From: Sulfurospirillum sp. 1612
GTDB lineage: Bacteria > Campylobacterota > Campylobacteria > Campylobacterales > Sulfurospirillaceae
Direction of reading: 5' to 3'
Assembly (NCBI RefSeq): GCF_036556685.1
Contig: NZ_CP140614.1
Span: 1,550,001 to 1,614,000 of the forward strand
DNA: 64,000 nt
Positions within the stretch are counted from its first letter, which is position 1; each line of letters starts with the position of its first letter. Below the pieces are notes generated by a model, which saw nothing but the letters and a program-made list of their open reading frames with translations, was not told the origin of the DNA and did not search any database. Shown here piece by piece: positions 40,559 through 49,230 of this stretch. A program made the translations under genes and the position numbers.

Positions 40559-41440
40559 TTATCGGCTCTTTTTTCTATTGATAAAATAGACTCCTAAAAA
40601 GATCAACCCTGCGGAGATATAATCGACCCAGTTTATATCTTCGCCTACGATAACAACACCGATAAAAAGCGCCACAACCGGCGGTAAATATGTAACCGAA
40701 GCGGCTTTGATGGAACCGAACTTCTCAATCAGATAATAATAGATAATATAGGCCAAGCCTGTACCTAAAAGCCCCAAACCCAGCACTAAACCCACCGCAG
40801 TATTGGCATCACTCCACACACGATTGATACCATCAAAATCTGTAATAAAGAGCAATATAAGCAATGCAAACCCCAACTGATATGTTGTCAGTGCGACTAC
40901 TGGAATCCTGAGCGGCATGATATATTTTTTAGCATAAACAAACGATGCCCCAACACTAAGTGAGCCAGATAGCATATAAACGATACCTTTTATACTAAGA
41001 GATTCCACATGCCAGGTGAAAATACCGCTGATGGTGACAACCCCTAAAAACCCAAGCAGCAATCCTAAGAAACCAAATTTATCCGTTTTTTCATCTTTTA
41101 AAAATATGATGGAAAGCAAAAACGAGAAAAGCGGTATCGCACCGCTCAGTACACCGGCTACACCCGATGGCAGCAAAAAGGAGCCTTTGACAAAACCAAA
41201 ATAATATATAACCGCTGCAAGCAATGCCATGATAATAAAATGCCTAAAATGCTTCAAGTGCGATAAAGAGAGAACTTTTGAATAATACGCATACAAAAGT
41301 ACCGGAATAAACCCAAAAAGTATCCTAAAAAACACCACTTGCATCGGACTAATCAAATGAGCTGCCAATTTCATGTAGATAAAATTGCTGCCCCAGATAA
41401 TCCCAAGCGCAAAAAATGCAATGACAGGGAGAAATCTCAT
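40559..41440 (-). CDS. EamA/DMT-family transporter
   Basis: 293 aa with ten hydrophobic helices in two EamA repeats. Signatures include ALGIIWGSNFIYMKLAA, PMQVVFFRILFGFIPVL, SGVAGVLSGAIPLFSFLLS in the first half, and SLSVGASFVYAKKYI, YYLIEKFGSIKAASVTYLPP in the second. Such carriers usually export amino acids or metabolites; the substrate is unknown. Its ATG overlaps the LhgO-like stop (ATGA), so the two are coupled, which suggests a shared metabolite. Confidence 0.88.
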   Translation of the reverse strand: MRFLPVIAFFALGIIWGSNFIYMKLAAHLISPMQVVFFRILFGFIPVLLYAYYSKVLSLSHLKHFRHFIIMALLAAVIYYFGFVKGSFLLPSGVAGVLSGAIPLFSFLLSIIFLKDEKTDKFGFLGLLLGFLGVVTISGIFTWHVESLSIKGIVYMLSGSLSVGASFVYAKKYIMPLRIPVVALTTYQLGFALLILLFITDFDGINRVWSDANTAVGLVLGLGLLGTGLAYIIYYYLIEKFGSIKAASVTYLPPVVALFIGVVIVGEDINWVDYISAGLIFLGVYFINRKKSR

Positions 41441-42630
41441 TTATTTATCACATAATGATCCACAACCCACTCAGAAAATGGCATCGAAGAGGTAAAAGCC
41501 GGAGAGACTGCATTGAGTACGTGAATACTCACATCATCGCCTTCAACCACGAAATCCTGAACCAGTTCCAGCGTCGTCGTATCTAAAAGTTGTGCTCTGA
41601 TACCCGGGGTACTCCATGTCGTAAATCCACTCATATCAAGTGGTTTCGTCAGTCCTTTTGCAAGATTTAGAAGATAGGATTTGGAGTATTTTTTCACTTC
41701 ACTTACAGCAAGCGCTCTAAACCCAAAAGCATTCGTAAAAAATAATTTGGCTTCATAAAACAGGATTTGAGCCATCTCAAAAATATTAAAATTCGCAAAG
41801 CCCTTATAATTTTCCCGCCAAAAAGCAGGAATCGCTGTGGGGCCGATTTTACTAGCATTTTCAACCGCATACGTATAATGCACTCCCAAAAAAGGATTGG
41901 CGAGATTGGGAACCGGATAGACATTGGTCGTAAGTCCACAGATATTTTTTTTATCTTTGAGATAAATTCCTTTAAATGGAATGATGACATATTTGTGAGC
42001 AAAACCAAAATCTTTGGCGATTTTATCGGCATACAATCCCGCACAATTGATGAGTTTTCTAAATCTAAGTATTCGTTTGCTCGTCTGAATCTCATGCGTA
42101 TCCGTTCGCTTCACATAGGCCGTATCTGTCATGATCTCCACACCCATCTCTTGAATATATTTTTTGAATTCAAGCGTGACTTCTTTGGGGTCAATCGTCG
42201 CAGTAGTAGGTGAAAATAGCGCCTTTGTTGTGGTCTTGAGATGGGGATATCGCGCGTCTAACTCTTCATCGCTCAACCAATCTAAAGCAACACCATTGAC
42301 ATCCCCTCTTCTTTTTAACTCTTCTAAACCCTCGACTTCATCATCGTTTTGGGCGACGACGACCTTGGCGCATTTATTGATACGCAGTCCACGTTCATCA
42401 CAAAAAGTCTGAAGCCTCGCGTTGCCCTCTTTGGTAAATTTTGCCTTGAGGGAATCGGCACTATAGTAAAATCCCGCGTGTAAGACGCCGCTATTTCTGC
42501 CACTACTGTGCATACCGACATCTTCTTCTTTTTCAATCACTGCAATAGTGGCACTCTTTTGTTTTTCTTTGAGTGCGCGTGCAATATTTAATCCAATAAT
42601 TCCCCCACCAATCACAACATAATCATACAT
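41437..42630 (-). CDS. lhgO: FAD-dependent L-2-hydroxyglutarate oxidase-like enzyme (LhgO)
   Basis: 397 aa DAO-family flavoprotein. The FAD dinucleotide motif is at the start (VVIGGGIIGLNIARALKEK), followed by EKEEDVGMHSSGRNSGVLHAGFYYSADSLKA, which includes the HSSGRNSGVxHxG block of LhgO/YgaF proteins. KLINCAGLYADKIAKDFG and LGVHYTYAVENASKIGPTAIPAF also fit. It would oxidise L-2-hydroxyglutarate to 2-oxoglutarate and pass electrons to the membrane pool, repairing a by-product of malate dehydrogenase. Other 2-hydroxyacids remain possible. Confidence 0.83.
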   Translation of the reverse strand: MYDYVVIGGGIIGLNIARALKEKQKSATIAVIEKEEDVGMHSSGRNSGVLHAGFYYSADSLKAKFTKEGNARLQTFCDERGLRINKCAKVVVAQNDDEVEGLEELKRRGDVNGVALDWLSDEELDARYPHLKTTTKALFSPTTATIDPKEVTLEFKKYIQEMGVEIMTDTAYVKRTDTHEIQTSKRILRFRKLINCAGLYADKIAKDFGFAHKYVIIPFKGIYLKDKKNICGLTTNVYPVPNLANPFLGVHYTYAVENASKIGPTAIPAFWRENYKGFANFNIFEMAQILFYEAKLFFTNAFGFRALAVSEVKKYSKSYLLNLAKGLTKPLDMSGFTTWSTPGIRAQLLDTTTLELVQDFVVEGDDVSIHVLNAVSPAFTSSMPFSEWVVDHYVINK

Positions 42631-42659: not shown

Positions 42660-44618
42660 TTACTCATTCGTAATTGTAGCAGTTTTTAGACTCTTTTTAT
42701 ATCGTCTTTTGTGTAAAATAAATGCTACTATCATGATAATCACTCCCAGTATATTGGTATCTTGTACCAAATCAAAATAACTGGTCCAATTAAAAACTTG
42801 ATCTTGGAAGAGTAAGAAAAACGTTGCGACCGCAAATAATCCTCGCTCTAAAATCGTCATCTTCATATCCCAATATCCCTCTGTCGTGGCGGCTACTCCT
42901 AAAAATCCCGGTATGGCAAAGGCAAATACTTCAAATCGTTCTGGCCATGTTCCTGTGATTAGAGGACTAAAAGCAAACAACAAGGGCATAATATAAAAGG
43001 CTTTGGCCGTTGAGAGTGCTTTGAAGCCTGTTTGCATCGGTGGTGTTTCAGCAATCGCAGCACCCGCAAACGCAGCCAAACAAACCGGTGGCGTCAAATT
43101 AGAGACTTGCGCCAACCAAAAAATCATCAAATGTGCCGCCAAAAGATACATCGTCGCTTGAGGGACATTCACACCCGCACTCAAAAGTGCAGCCGTCGCA
43201 GGGTCTAACATCAAGCCTACTAAAGCCGGAGCGGAGAGGACAACCAAAACCACATAAGAAGCCGTCGTTGGCAAGCCCATACCCAAGACTATCGCCGCAA
43301 TAGAGACCAATAAAAGTGCGATTAAGAGACTATTGTGAGACCATTCCATAATCAACTGTGAAAAAGTAACGCCAATACCTGAGATATTTACCACACCAAC
43401 AATCACTCCAATACTCACCAATAAGGTCCCTGTCACCACCATATTTTTGGAACCATCGGCTAATGCTTCTAAAATCAATCGAAAACTCATTCTTTTATTT
43501 TTAGTCAAATACGATGAAAAAACAATCGCAACCATAGAGATTCCCGCCGCATACGTTGGGGTAAAACCATAAATCAACAAGACAACTAAAGTACCAATAG
43601 GAATCAAAAAGTGAAATCCCTCACGAACAATCGGCCATGCTCTTTTATTAACATCTTCTGAAACAATATTGTGTTTTTTAGCATGAATATGAATATAAAA
43701 AGAGATTGAGATGAAGTACAACATCGCAGGCAAAATTGAAAGCACGATAATCGTAGAAAAGGCAATCTGTGTCATCTGTGCCATGATAAAAGCCCCCGCC
43801 CCCATAATCGGTGGCATAATCTGACCACCCGTACTCGCACTCGTCTCCACTGAAGCCGCGAACATCGGTCTGAATCCTGATTTTTTCATCATCGGAATAG
43901 TAATGGAGCCCGTTGAGACGACATTGGCCACAGCACTTCCTGAAATCGTTCCCATAAGAGCGGAACTAAAAAGAGCAACGTGTCCGGAGCCCCCTTTGAA
44001 TTTTGAAGTGGCCACAGAAGCGAGATCGACGATGAAATCTCCCGCACCACTTTTCATCAAAAAGGCAGAAAAGAGTATAAACATAAAGACATAAGTCGCT
44101 GATATAGTTGCAATAGAACCAAAAAGTCCCTCGCCAGTATAATACATACGATATAAAAATCGCTCGACACTCATCCCTCTAAATGCAAAGACACCATCTA
44201 GCAGAGTCCCAAAATAGAGGAGGTAACCAATGGCAATGATAATCATAGTCGGAATAATATACCCCGTGGTTCTTCTTAAAATTTCTAAAGACAACAAAAT
44301 CGCAAGTGTTGCATAAATCAAGTCAAATGGCCGCATATTACTGTGTGCGACAGTATAGAGGCTTTGCTCAAAAAACATCATGTATACAACAACACTTGAT
44401 GTCAAAATAGCAAGAATAATATCATAAATCGGTACCCTACTTTGATCGGAATGTTTGGAGGCACGGAAGGTCAAAAAGCCAAGTGAGGCTAGAAGTGAGA
44501 AATGTGCGGCATTGAACCAGAGATTACTCATCCCTCCCCAAATATTTTGATAAAAGTGGAACAGCGATATAAAAATTGCATAGACAAATATAAACTTGTT
44601 AAGAGACTCTCTTTTCAT
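42660..44618 (-). CDS. TRAP transporter fused 4TM/12TM permease
   Basis: 652 aa integral membrane protein combining the small (DctQ-like) and large (DctM) subunits. About 16 hydrophobic helices. The DctM core carries SALMGTISGSAVANVVSTGS, ETSASTGGQIMPPIMGAGAF and ALVLGMGLPTTASYVVLVVL-like segments, a signature of TAXI-associated fused permeases. It uses an ion gradient to import a ligand delivered by the TAXI receptor upstream. The 57-nt gap to that gene has a strong hairpin. Substrate unknown; candidates are dicarboxylates or amino acids. Confidence 0.92.
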   Translation of the reverse strand: MKRESLNKFIFVYAIFISLFHFYQNIWGGMSNLWFNAAHFSLLASLGFLTFRASKHSDQSRVPIYDIILAILTSSVVVYMMFFEQSLYTVAHSNMRPFDLIYATLAILLSLEILRRTTGYIIPTMIIIAIGYLLYFGTLLDGVFAFRGMSVERFLYRMYYTGEGLFGSIATISATYVFMFILFSAFLMKSGAGDFIVDLASVATSKFKGGSGHVALFSSALMGTISGSAVANVVSTGSITIPMMKKSGFRPMFAASVETSASTGGQIMPPIMGAGAFIMAQMTQIAFSTIIVLSILPAMLYFISISFYIHIHAKKHNIVSEDVNKRAWPIVREGFHFLIPIGTLVVLLIYGFTPTYAAGISMVAIVFSSYLTKNKRMSFRLILEALADGSKNMVVTGTLLVSIGVIVGVVNISGIGVTFSQLIMEWSHNSLLIALLLVSIAAIVLGMGLPTTASYVVLVVLSAPALVGLMLDPATAALLSAGVNVPQATMYLLAAHLMIFWLAQVSNLTPPVCLAAFAGAAIAETPPMQTGFKALSTAKAFYIMPLLFAFSPLITGTWPERFEVFAFAIPGFLGVAATTEGYWDMKMTILERGLFAVATFFLLFQDQVFNWTSYFDLVQDTNILGVIIMIVAFILHKRRYKKSLKTATITNE

Positions 44619-44675: not shown

Positions 44676-45695
44676 CTATTTTGCTATTAGTCTTGCTGGG
44701 ATTTTAAGCCCCATCTCTTTGTAGTATTTTGCAGCACCTGGGTGAAGTGGCATTGGGAGACCGTCGATTGCTTTTTGCAAACTCATGACTAAAGTTGCTT
44801 TATGAACGGAATGTAAAAATGGAAGGTTTTCATAAATCGTTTTTGTCAAAAGATACACTGTTTGCTCTGGAGTATCTGCGGTCACGACCAAAAGATTTGG
44901 TTGTGCGATAGTATGTACATCTTTGGTTTGTCCGGGATATGTTCCGGCTTTGATAGTAAATGGAGTCCATACCGGATAGTTATCATCAATCTTTTTAAGA
45001 TCGTCTGCTGTAAAGTTTAAGATAGCTAAATTTTTTGCACCAATAGTAGCATAGGCATTGGTAACAGAACTCGTTGGTGTACCCGCTGGTGTATTCATCC
45101 CTTGGATTTTTCCATCTTGAAGGGCATTAGAACTTGGAGTGTACCCGAGATATTGTACATCCATCTTGTTATAATCAATACCCAAAGAGCTCATGATAGT
45201 TTCAGAAGAAGTTCTACTTCCTGAGTTTCTACCACCGGATGAGAAACCTTCACCGTAGAGATTTTTTAAATCCATAATATTGCCCGTTTTGGCATATTTT
45301 TTATAGACGGTAAATTGCTCGACATTTTGCCATAACATCGTGATTGATCTTAGATTTTTTTTCGCTTTTCCTTTATAGAGACCTTTTCCTTGCCATGCCA
45401 TAGAACCAAACAAACCTTGCAAAATTGCAAATTTTGCTTCACCTTTATCCATCATATCAATATTTTCATTACTTCCCGCACTCGTGATTGCCGAAAAAGT
45501 GATGCCATATTTTTTTGCCAGTTTAATACTTGCAATAGTTGCAATACCGACACCAACAGGATAATACGTTCCCCCAGTACTTGCCGTAGCGATGATATAT
45601 CGATGCTCTTTTTGGGCTGCATTTAGGCTACCTGCCATAGACGCAATCACTGCAGTTGTCACTAAAACTCTTTTGAGAATTTTGCTCTTAATCAT
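44676..45695 (-). CDS. TAXI-family TRAP transporter solute receptor
   Basis: 339 aa periplasmic protein. A signal peptide (about 1-26, ending GSLNAAQ) is followed by the TAXI motif YIIATASTGGTYYPVGVGIA. KYGITFSAITSAGSNENIDMM, FAILQGLFGSMAW and LKNLYGEGFSSGGRNSGSRTSSE are also family hallmarks. It captures the ligand for the fused permease. AAGGAG before the ATG. A promoter with TATACT (45722-45727) and two 11-bp-spaced direct repeats lies immediately upstream. Confidence 0.92.
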   Translation of the reverse strand: MIKSKILKRVLVTTAVIASMAGSLNAAQKEHRYIIATASTGGTYYPVGVGIATIASIKLAKKYGITFSAITSAGSNENIDMMDKGEAKFAILQGLFGSMAWQGKGLYKGKAKKNLRSITMLWQNVEQFTVYKKYAKTGNIMDLKNLYGEGFSSGGRNSGSRTSSETIMSSLGIDYNKMDVQYLGYTPSSNALQDGKIQGMNTPAGTPTSSVTNAYATIGAKNLAILNFTADDLKKIDDNYPVWTPFTIKAGTYPGQTKDVHTIAQPNLLVVTADTPEQTVYLLTKTIYENLPFLHSVHKATLVMSLQKAIDGLPMPLHPGAAKYYKEMGLKIPARLIAK

Positions 45696-45736
45696 GTAAT
45701 CTCCTTATTTGATATAAAGAGAGTATAACATCATAA

Positions 45737-45756
45737 TTTCAAAATAGTTTCAAAAT
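45737..45756 (-). promoter_or_regulatory. Direct-repeat site over the TAXI-TRAP promoter
   Basis: TTTCAAAAT occurs at 45737-45745 and again at 45748-45756, spaced exactly 11 bp (one helical turn). Read on the minus strand, the repeats cover the -35 region of a TATACT -10 (45722-45727), and no proper -35 exists. That is the design of a promoter activated by an OmpR-family regulator, and such a regulator is encoded just upstream. Confidence 0.6.
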
Positions 45757-45798
45757 TGTTGTTTTATATGTAATTTTTTTTGAAGTGTTACTTTTTGA

Positions 45799-46506
45799 CT
45801 ACTTTTTTTCAATCATGTAACCTTGACCTTTGAGTGAGAGTATAAAATCTTCTTTGCCAATTTTGTCTTTTAAACGCTTCATGACCGTCCGAAACGTCAC
45901 ATCTGATTTATTGATATCATTCCATAACGCGAGTTTAAATGTCTCAATGGTTGTGATATTTCCTATATTGTTGGCTAAAATATCTAAAAGTTGCGTCTCT
46001 TGTTTGGATAATTTCACCCATTCATCATCGCAATACAGGAGTTTGCGCTTTGGATAATAGGTGTAATGCGTATTGATAACAATGGCATCGGAGATCAAAG
46101 ATTGCTCTTTTTCTTTGAGCACTTGTTCTTTCGCTTTGCTCAGGATTTTCATCATATTATCAACATTGATGGGTTTTAAAAAATAGCCCAATACTCTAAA
46201 GTTGATGGACTTCAATAGCTTTTCTTCATCTTTATACGCCGATACGATGATGAATTTTTGCTCTTTTCGTAATGCCAACATTTGTTCAATCATATCCATA
46301 CCATTTAGGTTGGGCATTTTGATGTCAGTGAGCACCAAATCAAATGTTTTCCCAGCTTCTAACTCTTTTTGAAACGTTTCATAACCAATCGCACCATCGA
46401 CCGCAGTCACCACATCTTCAAAGATTGTATTGAGATAAAAGCTCAAAATCTCTCTGGCATCTGCTTCATCTTCCACCAATAAAACTCTTGTGACATTTTT
46501 TTTCAC
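45799..46506 (-). CDS. OmpR-family response regulator
   Basis: 235 aa. Receiver domain (about 5-125): VLLVEDEADAREIL, phosphoacceptor in LVLTDIKMPNLNG, KP pair in YFLKPINVDN. A winged-helix Trans_reg_C domain follows (about 150-232; KLSKQETQLLDILANN, TFRTVMKRLKDKIGKEDFIL, GQGYMIEKK). GTG start overlaps the kinase stop (GTGA), with AGGAGG upstream. It very likely controls the TAXI-TRAP genes that follow, where matching direct repeats are found. Confidence 0.9.
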   Translation of the reverse strand: MKKNVTRVLLVEDEADAREILSFYLNTIFEDVVTAVDGAIGYETFQKELEAGKTFDLVLTDIKMPNLNGMDMIEQMLALRKEQKFIIVSAYKDEEKLLKSINFRVLGYFLKPINVDNMMKILSKAKEQVLKEKEQSLISDAIVINTHYTYYPKRKLLYCDDEWVKLSKQETQLLDILANNIGNITTIETFKLALWNDINKSDVTFRTVMKRLKDKIGKEDFILSLKGQGYMIEKK

Positions 46507-49151
46507 GATTCCTCCTGTGTGGGCAATATAACCTTAAATTCGACACCCTCTTCGATATTATGCACCTCAATTGTCCCTAGCATACTATTTTCGATAATCA
46601 TCTTCGTCATGTACAACCCAATACCCGTGCCTTGTTTTTCAAACTTTGTCGTAAAATAAGGTTCAAACATTCGGTCCATTATATCTTCTTTTATGGCTCC
46701 GGCATTATTGGCGATAATGATTTCATAACTATCATGATGCTGTCTTCCAAAGATATCGATGATACCTTGAAAAGTCTTGTCTTTTTCTAATTTCTGTGAA
46801 ATCGCATCTTTGGCATTGGAGATAATATTCAAGATCGCTTGTTTAAACTCATTTTCAAAACTGCACAGTGTCGCCTCCTCGATATCTATCTGAATGTTAA
46901 AGGCCTTTGTGTCTAAATCCGAACTGGCAATCTCTTTGATGGCGAGCAAGGTCTTTTTGAGATCAAACGTAGCACGCTCTTTTGAAGGTTTATAAAAATT
47001 TCTAAAGTCATCAATCGTATGAGACATATAATCAATCTGTTTTTTACCTTTATCGATATAATTACTAATCATATCATGACTGAGTTTTTGATTATCATAA
47101 TTATCCCGAATAAAATGCAAAATCAGGGAGATATTATTGAGCGGTTGACGCCATTGATGGGCTATAGCACCAATCATCTCACCCATGGCGGCTAGTTTGT
47201 TTTGTTGCACCAATAATTTGTCTTTTGCGATATTTTTAGCAACCTCATCTTTGACTTTGAGTTCCAGCTCTTGTTCGCTTTGTTTAATCGCCGTAATATC
47301 ATAAATATATCCATACAGTGCCGTGACATTTCCAAAATCATCTTTGATGAAAATCGCATGAGAAAAGACCCAGCGCAACTCTTGTGTTCCCTTTTTCAAA
47401 ATCCTATAAATACAAGAAAATCCCTCTTGATGGTTAGCAATATGCTCTTGCAAAGATTGCATGACTATTGGCAAATCATCTTTATAGATAATATCAGTGT
47501 ACATCATGCTCTGTTGCAATAAATCATCTGGAACATATCCAAATTTGGCAATGCTCTCAGACGCAAAAGTCACAGTCAGATACGCATCATTATTCCAGCG
47601 AAATAGGACAATATCCCCCTCACGCATCAAAAGCCACGTATCATCAAGTGTTTTTTCGATTCTTTTACGATCGACTATATTCATCGCCATCATGACCAAG
47701 CGTTCTTGTTGGTGTTTTTCGTCATAAAAAATCTTGCCTCGAGATAATACCCATCGGTAACGATTGAGTTTTGTCTTGATACGATATTCTGCGATAAAAT
47801 GATCACGAAGACCCCGTTTATGTTCGCTCATGATCTTTTCGACATTATCGCGATCATCCTTGTGAATTAATTCTAGCCAAGCATCATAGGAGTCAATATC
47901 ACCCCGCTTGTATCCAAACATCTCAAGCCACGTATTGGAAAAGAAGATTTTTCCCGTTTTAAAGTTAATATCCCACAATCCATCGTTTGAGGCGATGATT
48001 GCGAGCTCATAGCGCTCCTTCCAAATCTGCAATAATCTATTTTTGTTTTCAAATCTTTTATTATATGAAGAGAAAACTTTTTTGATAAAATTACTAAAAC
48101 TCACCGATGCAATCAAAAAGATAACGGTAAAAATTAAAATGATGACACCCACCAGTGTTTTGCGATGTTGGAAGACTTGTTGGATTTTCTTTTTCTCTGC
48201 AAGATACCGATCGACTATTTGATGATGTTTTGTTTTGATTCCCACACCAAAACTGTATTGGTAAAAATCATAAAAATTTTTAAAAAGAGTATTTTCCCGA
48301 CTCTGTTTTTGATTGATTCTTTGAATCATATGCGCCTCTTTTGGGCTCAACTTTGGTAAGACATCTTTGATGCTGTGCCATTTTTTTTGATTAAAGATAT
48401 TGAAAAAATATCGTTCATTATAATCATAAAAATAAAAATATTGGTGGGCTTGTGTAGAGGTCTCTTTTCCTATGGCGTGAAACAGTGTTTTGGCCGTAAA
48501 TTTTTTGAGATTATCTGTAATCGAAAACGCTCCAATAAACCAATCTGTTTTTTTATCCAGTTCGAAATAATTCACTTGAATACTTTTGGTATCGTCATTT
48601 TTCCAATAAAAACTACTTTTATCACCCTGTGAAGAGATGTATAAAATCGTCAATTGAAGGGATCTTGGATTATTATAATTGTTAAAAATTAATTTTTGTA
48701 TATTTTTTAATGTATTCAACCCATAAATGACATTATAAGTATTTTTTTCAAAAATAACAAAATGGATGTGCTCTTGTCGTTCAACTGACTCTAAATATGG
48801 TGTTAGCTGTGCCACGGTTGGATGATTGTTCTGAGCAGAAAGACCATTGATAGTACCTCGGATTTGAGCGACGTTGAACATTAGTTTTTTTTCAATATTT
48901 TTAAAATAGGTATGCACTTTATTGAGATTGTTATCAACATAATCGAGTAATTTTTTGTTATTTTCATAACTGCTTTGGAGTTTTGCTCTTTGTGAAATCA
49001 AATCAAGTTGTGAATTTTTATTGAAATCTAAAATAAAAGAAGCCACTAAAAAAGAGATAATAGACAATAAGAGGATAAAAAATATAGGGAAAAATACTAA
49101 CATTTTCTCAATATCATGTAATCTATAAAGACGTCTTGATTTGTTAGACAT
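46503..49151 (-). CDS. Sensor histidine kinase with large periplasmic domain and two PAS domains
   Basis: 882 aa from the ATG at 49151 (GGAG upstream; the longer frame lacks one). A transmembrane helix (about 18-42), a periplasmic sensor region of roughly 280 residues, a second helix (about 325-348), PAS-PAC twice (about 370-500 and 505-635), HisKA with GAIAHQWRQPLNNIS, and HATPase (ANNAGAIKEDIMDRMFEPYF, GTGIGLYMTK). Coupled to the response regulator. The extracytoplasmic domain probably senses the TRAP ligand or a related compound, an inference from the neighbouring genes. Confidence 0.88.
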   Translation of the reverse strand: MSNKSRRLYRLHDIEKMLVFFPIFFILLLSIISFLVASFILDFNKNSQLDLISQRAKLQSSYENNKKLLDYVDNNLNKVHTYFKNIEKKLMFNVAQIRGTINGLSAQNNHPTVAQLTPYLESVERQEHIHFVIFEKNTYNVIYGLNTLKNIQKLIFNNYNNPRSLQLTILYISSQGDKSSFYWKNDDTKSIQVNYFELDKKTDWFIGAFSITDNLKKFTAKTLFHAIGKETSTQAHQYFYFYDYNERYFFNIFNQKKWHSIKDVLPKLSPKEAHMIQRINQKQSRENTLFKNFYDFYQYSFGVGIKTKHHQIVDRYLAEKKKIQQVFQHRKTLVGVIILIFTVIFLIASVSFSNFIKKVFSSYNKRFENKNRLLQIWKERYELAIIASNDGLWDINFKTGKIFFSNTWLEMFGYKRGDIDSYDAWLELIHKDDRDNVEKIMSEHKRGLRDHFIAEYRIKTKLNRYRWVLSRGKIFYDEKHQQERLVMMAMNIVDRKRIEKTLDDTWLLMREGDIVLFRWNNDAYLTVTFASESIAKFGYVPDDLLQQSMMYTDIIYKDDLPIVMQSLQEHIANHQEGFSCIYRILKKGTQELRWVFSHAIFIKDDFGNVTALYGYIYDITAIKQSEQELELKVKDEVAKNIAKDKLLVQQNKLAAMGEMIGAIAHQWRQPLNNISLILHFIRDNYDNQKLSHDMISNYIDKGKKQIDYMSHTIDDFRNFYKPSKERATFDLKKTLLAIKEIASSDLDTKAFNIQIDIEEATLCSFENEFKQAILNIISNAKDAISQKLEKDKTFQGIIDIFGRQHHDSYEIIIANNAGAIKEDIMDRMFEPYFTTKFEKQGTGIGLYMTKMIIENSMLGTIEVHNIEEGVEFKVILPTQEES

Positions 49152-49230
49152 TTCACTACTCCTGCATTGCTTTAGATTTACCAAATAAAACAAATAGTAT
49201 AATACCAAAAAAATACAAGGACTTTACAAT

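Follow-up and report, generated by a model that had tools for sequence, protein, structure and literature searches.

The OmpR-class regulator DccR of Campylobacter jejuni reportedly recognizes TTCAC-N6-TTCAC, a site with an 11-bp period, and is set apart from the system analyzed here by its half-site and its targets, both of which differ. The available text on PhoB describes binding to two 11-nt direct repeats in a head-to-tail arrangement, with a contact to sigma (PMC4415409). The site reported below resembles the Pho box in that two 11-nt direct repeats go with an OmpR/PhoB-class regulator, whose binding is in our case predicted; in contrast to the Pho box, the half-site is TGAAAC instead of CTGTCAT, and the operon concerned encodes a TAXI-TRAP transporter, not phosphate genes. 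In Sulfurospirillum, the PceP/PceS pair (TCS2) controls organohalide respiration and has, according to the part of the account available, the consensus CTATW-N17-CTATW (PMC7755780). It is likewise an OmpR-class pair of a Campylobacterales genus with a site overlapping the -35 of its target, and its CTATA repeats with 6-nt gaps amount to the same 11-bp period (PMC7755780). The CTATW-N17-CTATW consensus was, by eye, absent from the intergenic sequence studied here.

A two-component pair beside a transporter dependent on a solute-binding protein (SBP), as found at the present locus, is also described for BctDE/BctCBA of Bordetella, where the pair lies next to a TTT transporter and activates it in response to its substrate, citrate; the Bordetella system differs in concerning citrate and the TTT family and, as far as the consulted text goes, in that its receptor takes part in signalling (PMC5812351). 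For the TAXI-TRAP/kinase-regulator system itself, no description of regulation or substrate was found in the literature searched, which covered few subscription papers.

Organization of the locus

The window, i.e. the whole stretch of 64,000 nucleotides that was analyzed, belongs to a genome of 2.38 Mb in one contig (G000 in our set). On its minus strand, a sensor kinase gene and a response regulator gene are followed by a gap of 103 bp and then by the genes for a TAXI receptor, a fused TRAP permease, an L-2-hydroxyglutarate oxidase and an EamA transporter, the latter being probably on the same transcript as the operon in this genome (Table 1).

Table 1. Features of the TAXI-TRAP locus, in window coordinates
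Feature	Position	Strand	Basis or remark
EamA-family transporter	40559..41440	-	Pfam; overlaps the oxidase gene
L-2-hydroxyglutarate oxidase (NF008726)	41437..42630	-	29 bp downstream of the permease gene; 320 bits vs cut-off 299
Fused TRAP permease (TIGR02123)	42660..44618	-	profile match
TAXI solute receptor (TIGR02122); follows the putative operator as its first gene	44676..45695	-	profile match
Extended -10, TG-T-TATACT, TGTTATACT	45722..45730 (hexamer 45722-45727)	-	sequence reading and model assignment
Tandem 11-bp operator (predicted), TGAAAC-N5-TGAAAY	45737..45756	-	sequence and conservation in regulator-linked relatives
GTAACA (GTWACA family)	45786..45791	-	similar to the HP1021/CemR box; lies 64 nt upstream of the -10
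OmpR/PhoB-class response regulator, proposed operator binder	45799..46506	-	Pfam and recognition-helix alignment
Sensor histidine kinase: periplasmic double-Cache-like, PAS, HisKA, HATPase_c	46503..49208	-	Pfam, structure model, fold search

The first-pass annotation had placed the regulator in the OmpR class, an assignment borne out by a Response_reg (PF00072, 64.5 bits) and a Trans_reg_C domain (PF00486, 36.7 bits), both above cut-off. The phospho-acceptor Asp and the Lys of the receiver are kept, with the TD..MP and KP blocks conserved in aligned orthologues, and the protein is not PhoB proper (45.9 bits vs a PhoB equivalog cut-off of 296.2). The periplasmic domain of the kinase was modelled with a pLDDT of 84.5. 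A fold search with this sensor domain returned Cache domains as the best structural matches, which are weak (E about 1e-3); matches were of Cache type only, and no ligand was assigned. Of the 12 kinase members, 4 match Pfam dCache_2 (best E 8e-5); the kinase of the window is not among them. Both transporter components belong to the TAXI-TRAP families by score (283.5 bits vs a cut-off of 84.35 for TIGR02122; 603.7 vs 320.65 for TIGR02123), and the nearest solved TAXI structure is 9ibp (E 7e-107).

Sequence and geometry of the repeat

Inspection of the sequence had previously suggested that two 9-base direct repeats, 11 bp apart, cover the -35 region in front of a TATACT -10. As listed in Table 1, the repeat is present exactly as claimed, TTTCAAAAT-AG-TTTCAAAAT occurring with zero mismatches, in two copies with a period of 11 bp. 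Read along transcription of the TAXI operon, i.e. on the minus strand, the site is TTTTGAAACTATTTTGAAATTATGATGTTATACT, which gives the transcribed-strand unit TGAAAC-N5-TGAAAY, also written TGAAACTATTT-TGAAAT, with 8 nt between the second TGAAAY and the -10. The hexamer found 17 nt from the -10 is AAACTA instead of TTGACA, so that the -35 region is indeed taken up by the repeats. The comparative unit is an 11-bp TGAAAC-N5, instead of a 9-mer plus 2.

Evidence from this single sequence is only moderate, since 62 of 2000 shuffles contained an exact 9-mer repeat at some lag between 9 and 25; of 5000 dinucleotide-shuffled versions of the 103-bp gap, 14 contained one at lag 11 itself. Counting 9-mers with at least three different letters, the repeat is the sole exact lag-11 pair of the window (20 shuffled windows average 0.45), and for lag-11 signal within the window the TAXI promoter holds the top rank among 32. 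A looser scan of the window, allowing 3 mismatches, was non-significant when taken alone (2 matches, with as many in 34 of 100 shuffles). The strength of the case comes from the relatives.

Conservation of the repeat in relatives

A regulator orthologue (E <= 1e-42) was present in 41 of 398 genomes sampled from the order, distributed over families f1, f6, f9 and f10, and further orthologues were found on GTDB contigs labelled Campylobacteraceae, Sulfurovum and Nitratifractor. In the loci retrieved, upstream regions were read for TAXI genes sharing 52% identity or more. Of 33 regulator-linked loci, 32 promoters were retained; the one left out is L133 (G326), where the TAXI gene abuts the regulator gene with no intergenic space for a site. 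Dropped before this count were G005, whose TAXI gene runs off the contig, the duplicates L034/L099 and L037/L100, the ~30% TAXI set, and loci with a regulator and no readable TAXI gene of the right type (L040, L041, L105, L108, L111 and L114).

Within these 32 promoters, lag 11 was top among lags 8-20 in 27 cases and sole top in 20, with a mean of 9.38 matches out of 11. The corresponding controls gave lag 11 as top in 3 of 43 kinase-upstream regions (mean 6.28) and in 7 of 26 permease-upstream regions (mean 6.54), and TAXI promoters of regulator-less genomes gave 3 of 6 (mean 7.33), with sole top in none. For general upstream regions of this and related genomes, lag 11 was tied or top in 19 of 86, with a mean of 6.47.

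A model in which a -10 follows two TGAAAC-like units with an 11-bp period was then scored against each promoter's own shuffles. The first-pass annotation had named absence of the repeat where regulator and transporter are both conserved as grounds for refutation, a test that its idea withstands: the repeat was recovered by this model in 31 of the 32 linked promoters, where at most 5% of the shuffles reached the score, keeping in mind that the relatives' sequences are akin and the counts therefore not independent. The one exception lies on a Nitratifractor contig (shuffle fraction 0.06). Apart from G010, which is treated below, none of the regulator-less TAXI promoters (six) passed, their fractions being 0.06 (G062, borderline), 0.30, 0.385, 0.50, 0.595 and 1.0; two of them (G062 and G029) reach 9/11 at lag 11 through T-runs.

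An extended -10 was present in 20 of the 32 linked promoters. Between the end of the repeat pair and the -10 lie 6-10 nt in 20 of these 32 promoters; in the other 12, which comprise all 8 f9 genomes together with G006, G025, G110 and G122, the distance is 19-20 nt. An inverted copy, GTTTCAAAA, occupies the nearer position in 6 of the 8 f9 promoters, and several g1 promoters show, by eye, a third and weaker copy 11 bp upstream. Several bacterial families share this arrangement, which is nevertheless of a familiar kind.

Paralogous kinase-regulator pairs were also encountered in f9, where they are convergent with a different (~30%) TAXI-TRAP (L101, L104, L106, L120 and L122). Several upstream regions of the ~30% TAXI genes in f9 carry what look like two to three TGYAAT-like 11-bp repeats, located farther from the -10. 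For the ~30% set, which stands outside the main counts, lag 11 gave at least 9/11 in 9 of 19 upstreams, these 19 including L094, the second TAXI gene of a regulator-less genome, and L039, on a contig of unassigned family.

Linkage between the site and the regulator

The site tracks the TAXI gene, not the regulator gene. The repeat stays at the TAXI promoter in G007, G281, G109 and G396, in which regulator and TAXI genes are separated by an ABM-domain gene, by a gap of ~940 bp and, in the last two, by about 4 kb, respectively. The recognition helix FRTVMKRLKDK is nearly invariant in the alignment of regulator orthologues; in Nitratifractor, the helix reads FRAIMKRLKDK and the half-site has drifted, so that both differ. 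As a side observation, the ABM-domain gene of G007 (L034/L099) lies at 2608-2952, between the regulator and the TAXI gene, the operator remaining with the latter.

Searching 60 genomes with TGAAAY-N5-TGAAAY-N6-11-TATRMT yielded 6 matches, 5 of which are TAXI promoters, with one match in this genome; the reversed-pattern control yielded 3 matches in the same 60 genomes. This genome contains 259 two-mismatch matches. The other near matches read here, 6 of 6 places, lie inside genes, 3 of these six having been read among the roughly 100 two-mismatch matches listed; of five other near matches from a separate search, four were read. The operator may have a wider regulon in this genome.

A particular situation was observed in G010, a genome rated 100% complete, which carries a perfect 11/11 repeat, TGCAATTTTATTGCAAT, before its TAXI gene (model shuffle fraction exactly 0.05). 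No regulator orthologue was detected in G010 at E <= 1e-45, the best match being background (34%), and no kinase-regulator pair lies upstream of the TAXI gene, the genes in front of it being unrelated. Two explanations offer themselves: a recent loss of the pair, or a takeover of the site by a different regulator. The G010 repeat (L092) is located around 5380, and an inverted-repeat-like sequence, GGGGACAGGCTAC, is seen upstream of it.

Proposed mode of regulation and alternative explanations

The sequence and conservation of the repeat, the geometry of the promoter and the link with the regulator gene lead us to infer that the repeat is very probably a tandem operator of the PhoB-like kind, used by the adjacent OmpR/PhoB-class regulator to activate the TAXI-TRAP operon. 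According to this model, the periplasmic Cache-type sensor kinase would detect a signal and phosphorylate the regulator, two winged-helix domains of which would then bind head-to-tail along the same face of the helix, at the pair of 11-bp units and in place of a -35 box. The bound regulator would bring RNA polymerase to the extended -10, and the TAXI-TRAP operon, including the L-2-hydroxyglutarate oxidase, would thereby be switched on. The combination of operator, regulator, Cache-type kinase and linked oxidase would offer a testable substrate and a ready reporter, and the regulator-less lineages natural controls for the gain or loss of a two-component layer over a fixed promoter.

In this phylum, as described for Campylobacter jejuni, general promoters carry a T-rich, roughly 11-bp periodic signal in place of the -35. 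A signal of this kind, binding no regulator, might in principle account for the repeat, given that the window is AT-rich, that the units are T/A-rich and that two regulator-less promoters show a weak lag-11 signal. However, the 86 general upstream regions lack a lag-11 peak, their means ranging from 6.06 to 6.51 over lags 8-20, a result on which a general periodic promoter signal was rejected as the cause; moreover, T-runs leave the conserved G and C of TGAAAC unexplained, and we consider this explanation highly improbable. That the repeat is bound by another OmpR-class protein of the cell, with the neighboring pair being incidental, is compatible with the persistence of the repeat in G010 without such a neighbor and with the 37 regulator-like matches of this genome. 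This possibility too appears quite improbable to us in view of the co-occurrence of site and regulator gene (31 of 32 promoters with the regulator vs 0 of 6 without) and of the intragenic position of all near matches read elsewhere in the genome.

The adjacent regulator could also bind the repeat as a repressor, blocking polymerase until a signal releases it, and the overlap of the site with the -35 region would fit such a role. Nevertheless, there is no recognizable -35 to block, and an extended -10 that lacks a -35 suggests a promoter dependent on an activator. In all 8 f9 promoters, a distance of 20 nt separates the end of the pair from the -10, which fits activation, and OmpR-class sites over the -35 in Sulfurospirillum are, in the available part of the study, argued to activate (PMC7755780). 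Repression is accordingly regarded as unlikely, and activation by the adjacent pair remains our preferred reading.

A second conserved element, GTWACA

In 19 of 24 promoters (f1, f6 and Nitratifractor), among them 5 of 7 regulator-less ones (G010 included), a GTWACA sequence begins 63-66 nt ahead of the -10, the chance expectation being about 0.004 per promoter. In G003, which has a longer leader, the element shifts together with the -10. The f9 and f10 promoters that were read lack it. The first-pass annotation had suggested that kinase, regulator and transporter form a self-contained unit; this wording now seems too strong, since an element conserved independently of the regulator implies that the unit is probably not self-contained.

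By sequence, GTWACA fits the core of the HP1021 box TGTTWCW, the box of an orphan regulator. Cj1509 of C. jejuni and CemR/Cj1608 are presumably one and the same. In the portion of the source consulted, where the name Cj1509 is used, TGTTACA is the box that this protein binds best (PMC6052347), and CemR is described as affecting TCA-cycle genes (PMC11334517, in part). The assignment of GTWACA as a putative HP1021/CemR box is a lead only.

Substrate of the transporter

The TAXI-TRAP transporter of Proteus mirabilis is reported, in the text available, to be specific for 2-oxoglutarate and 2-hydroxyglutarate, matching the oxidase neighbor found here (PMC12344293), and VcGluP is described as transporting glutamate (PMC11574862, likewise in part). 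The L-2-hydroxyglutarate oxidase of the operon, together with the specificity of the Proteus transporter, favors a substrate of the 2-hydroxyglutarate/2-oxoglutarate type, for which the chances appear to be roughly even.

A broader and distinctly more tentative possibility, which we would not expect to hold in full, is that of a dual-input promoter for 2-hydroxyglutarate/2-oxoglutarate uptake, combining an HP1021/CemR-type box with the Cache-kinase/PhoB-class pair and its tandem operator. If this were true, the GTWACA box would form the older layer, tying uptake to energy status, and the kinase-regulator pair a second, lineage-variable layer sensing the substrate itself, lineages having kept or lost the pair while the GTWACA layer stayed.

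Among the 58 loci searched, an oxidase orthologue was found near TAXI-TRAP in 17, a count that includes one partial, weak match (L036), and many of the other loci are too short to show one. These neighbors include the regulator-less genomes G062, G033 and G029, where the oxidase gene is divergent. In G062, a LUD-domain gene is located alongside the oxidase gene.
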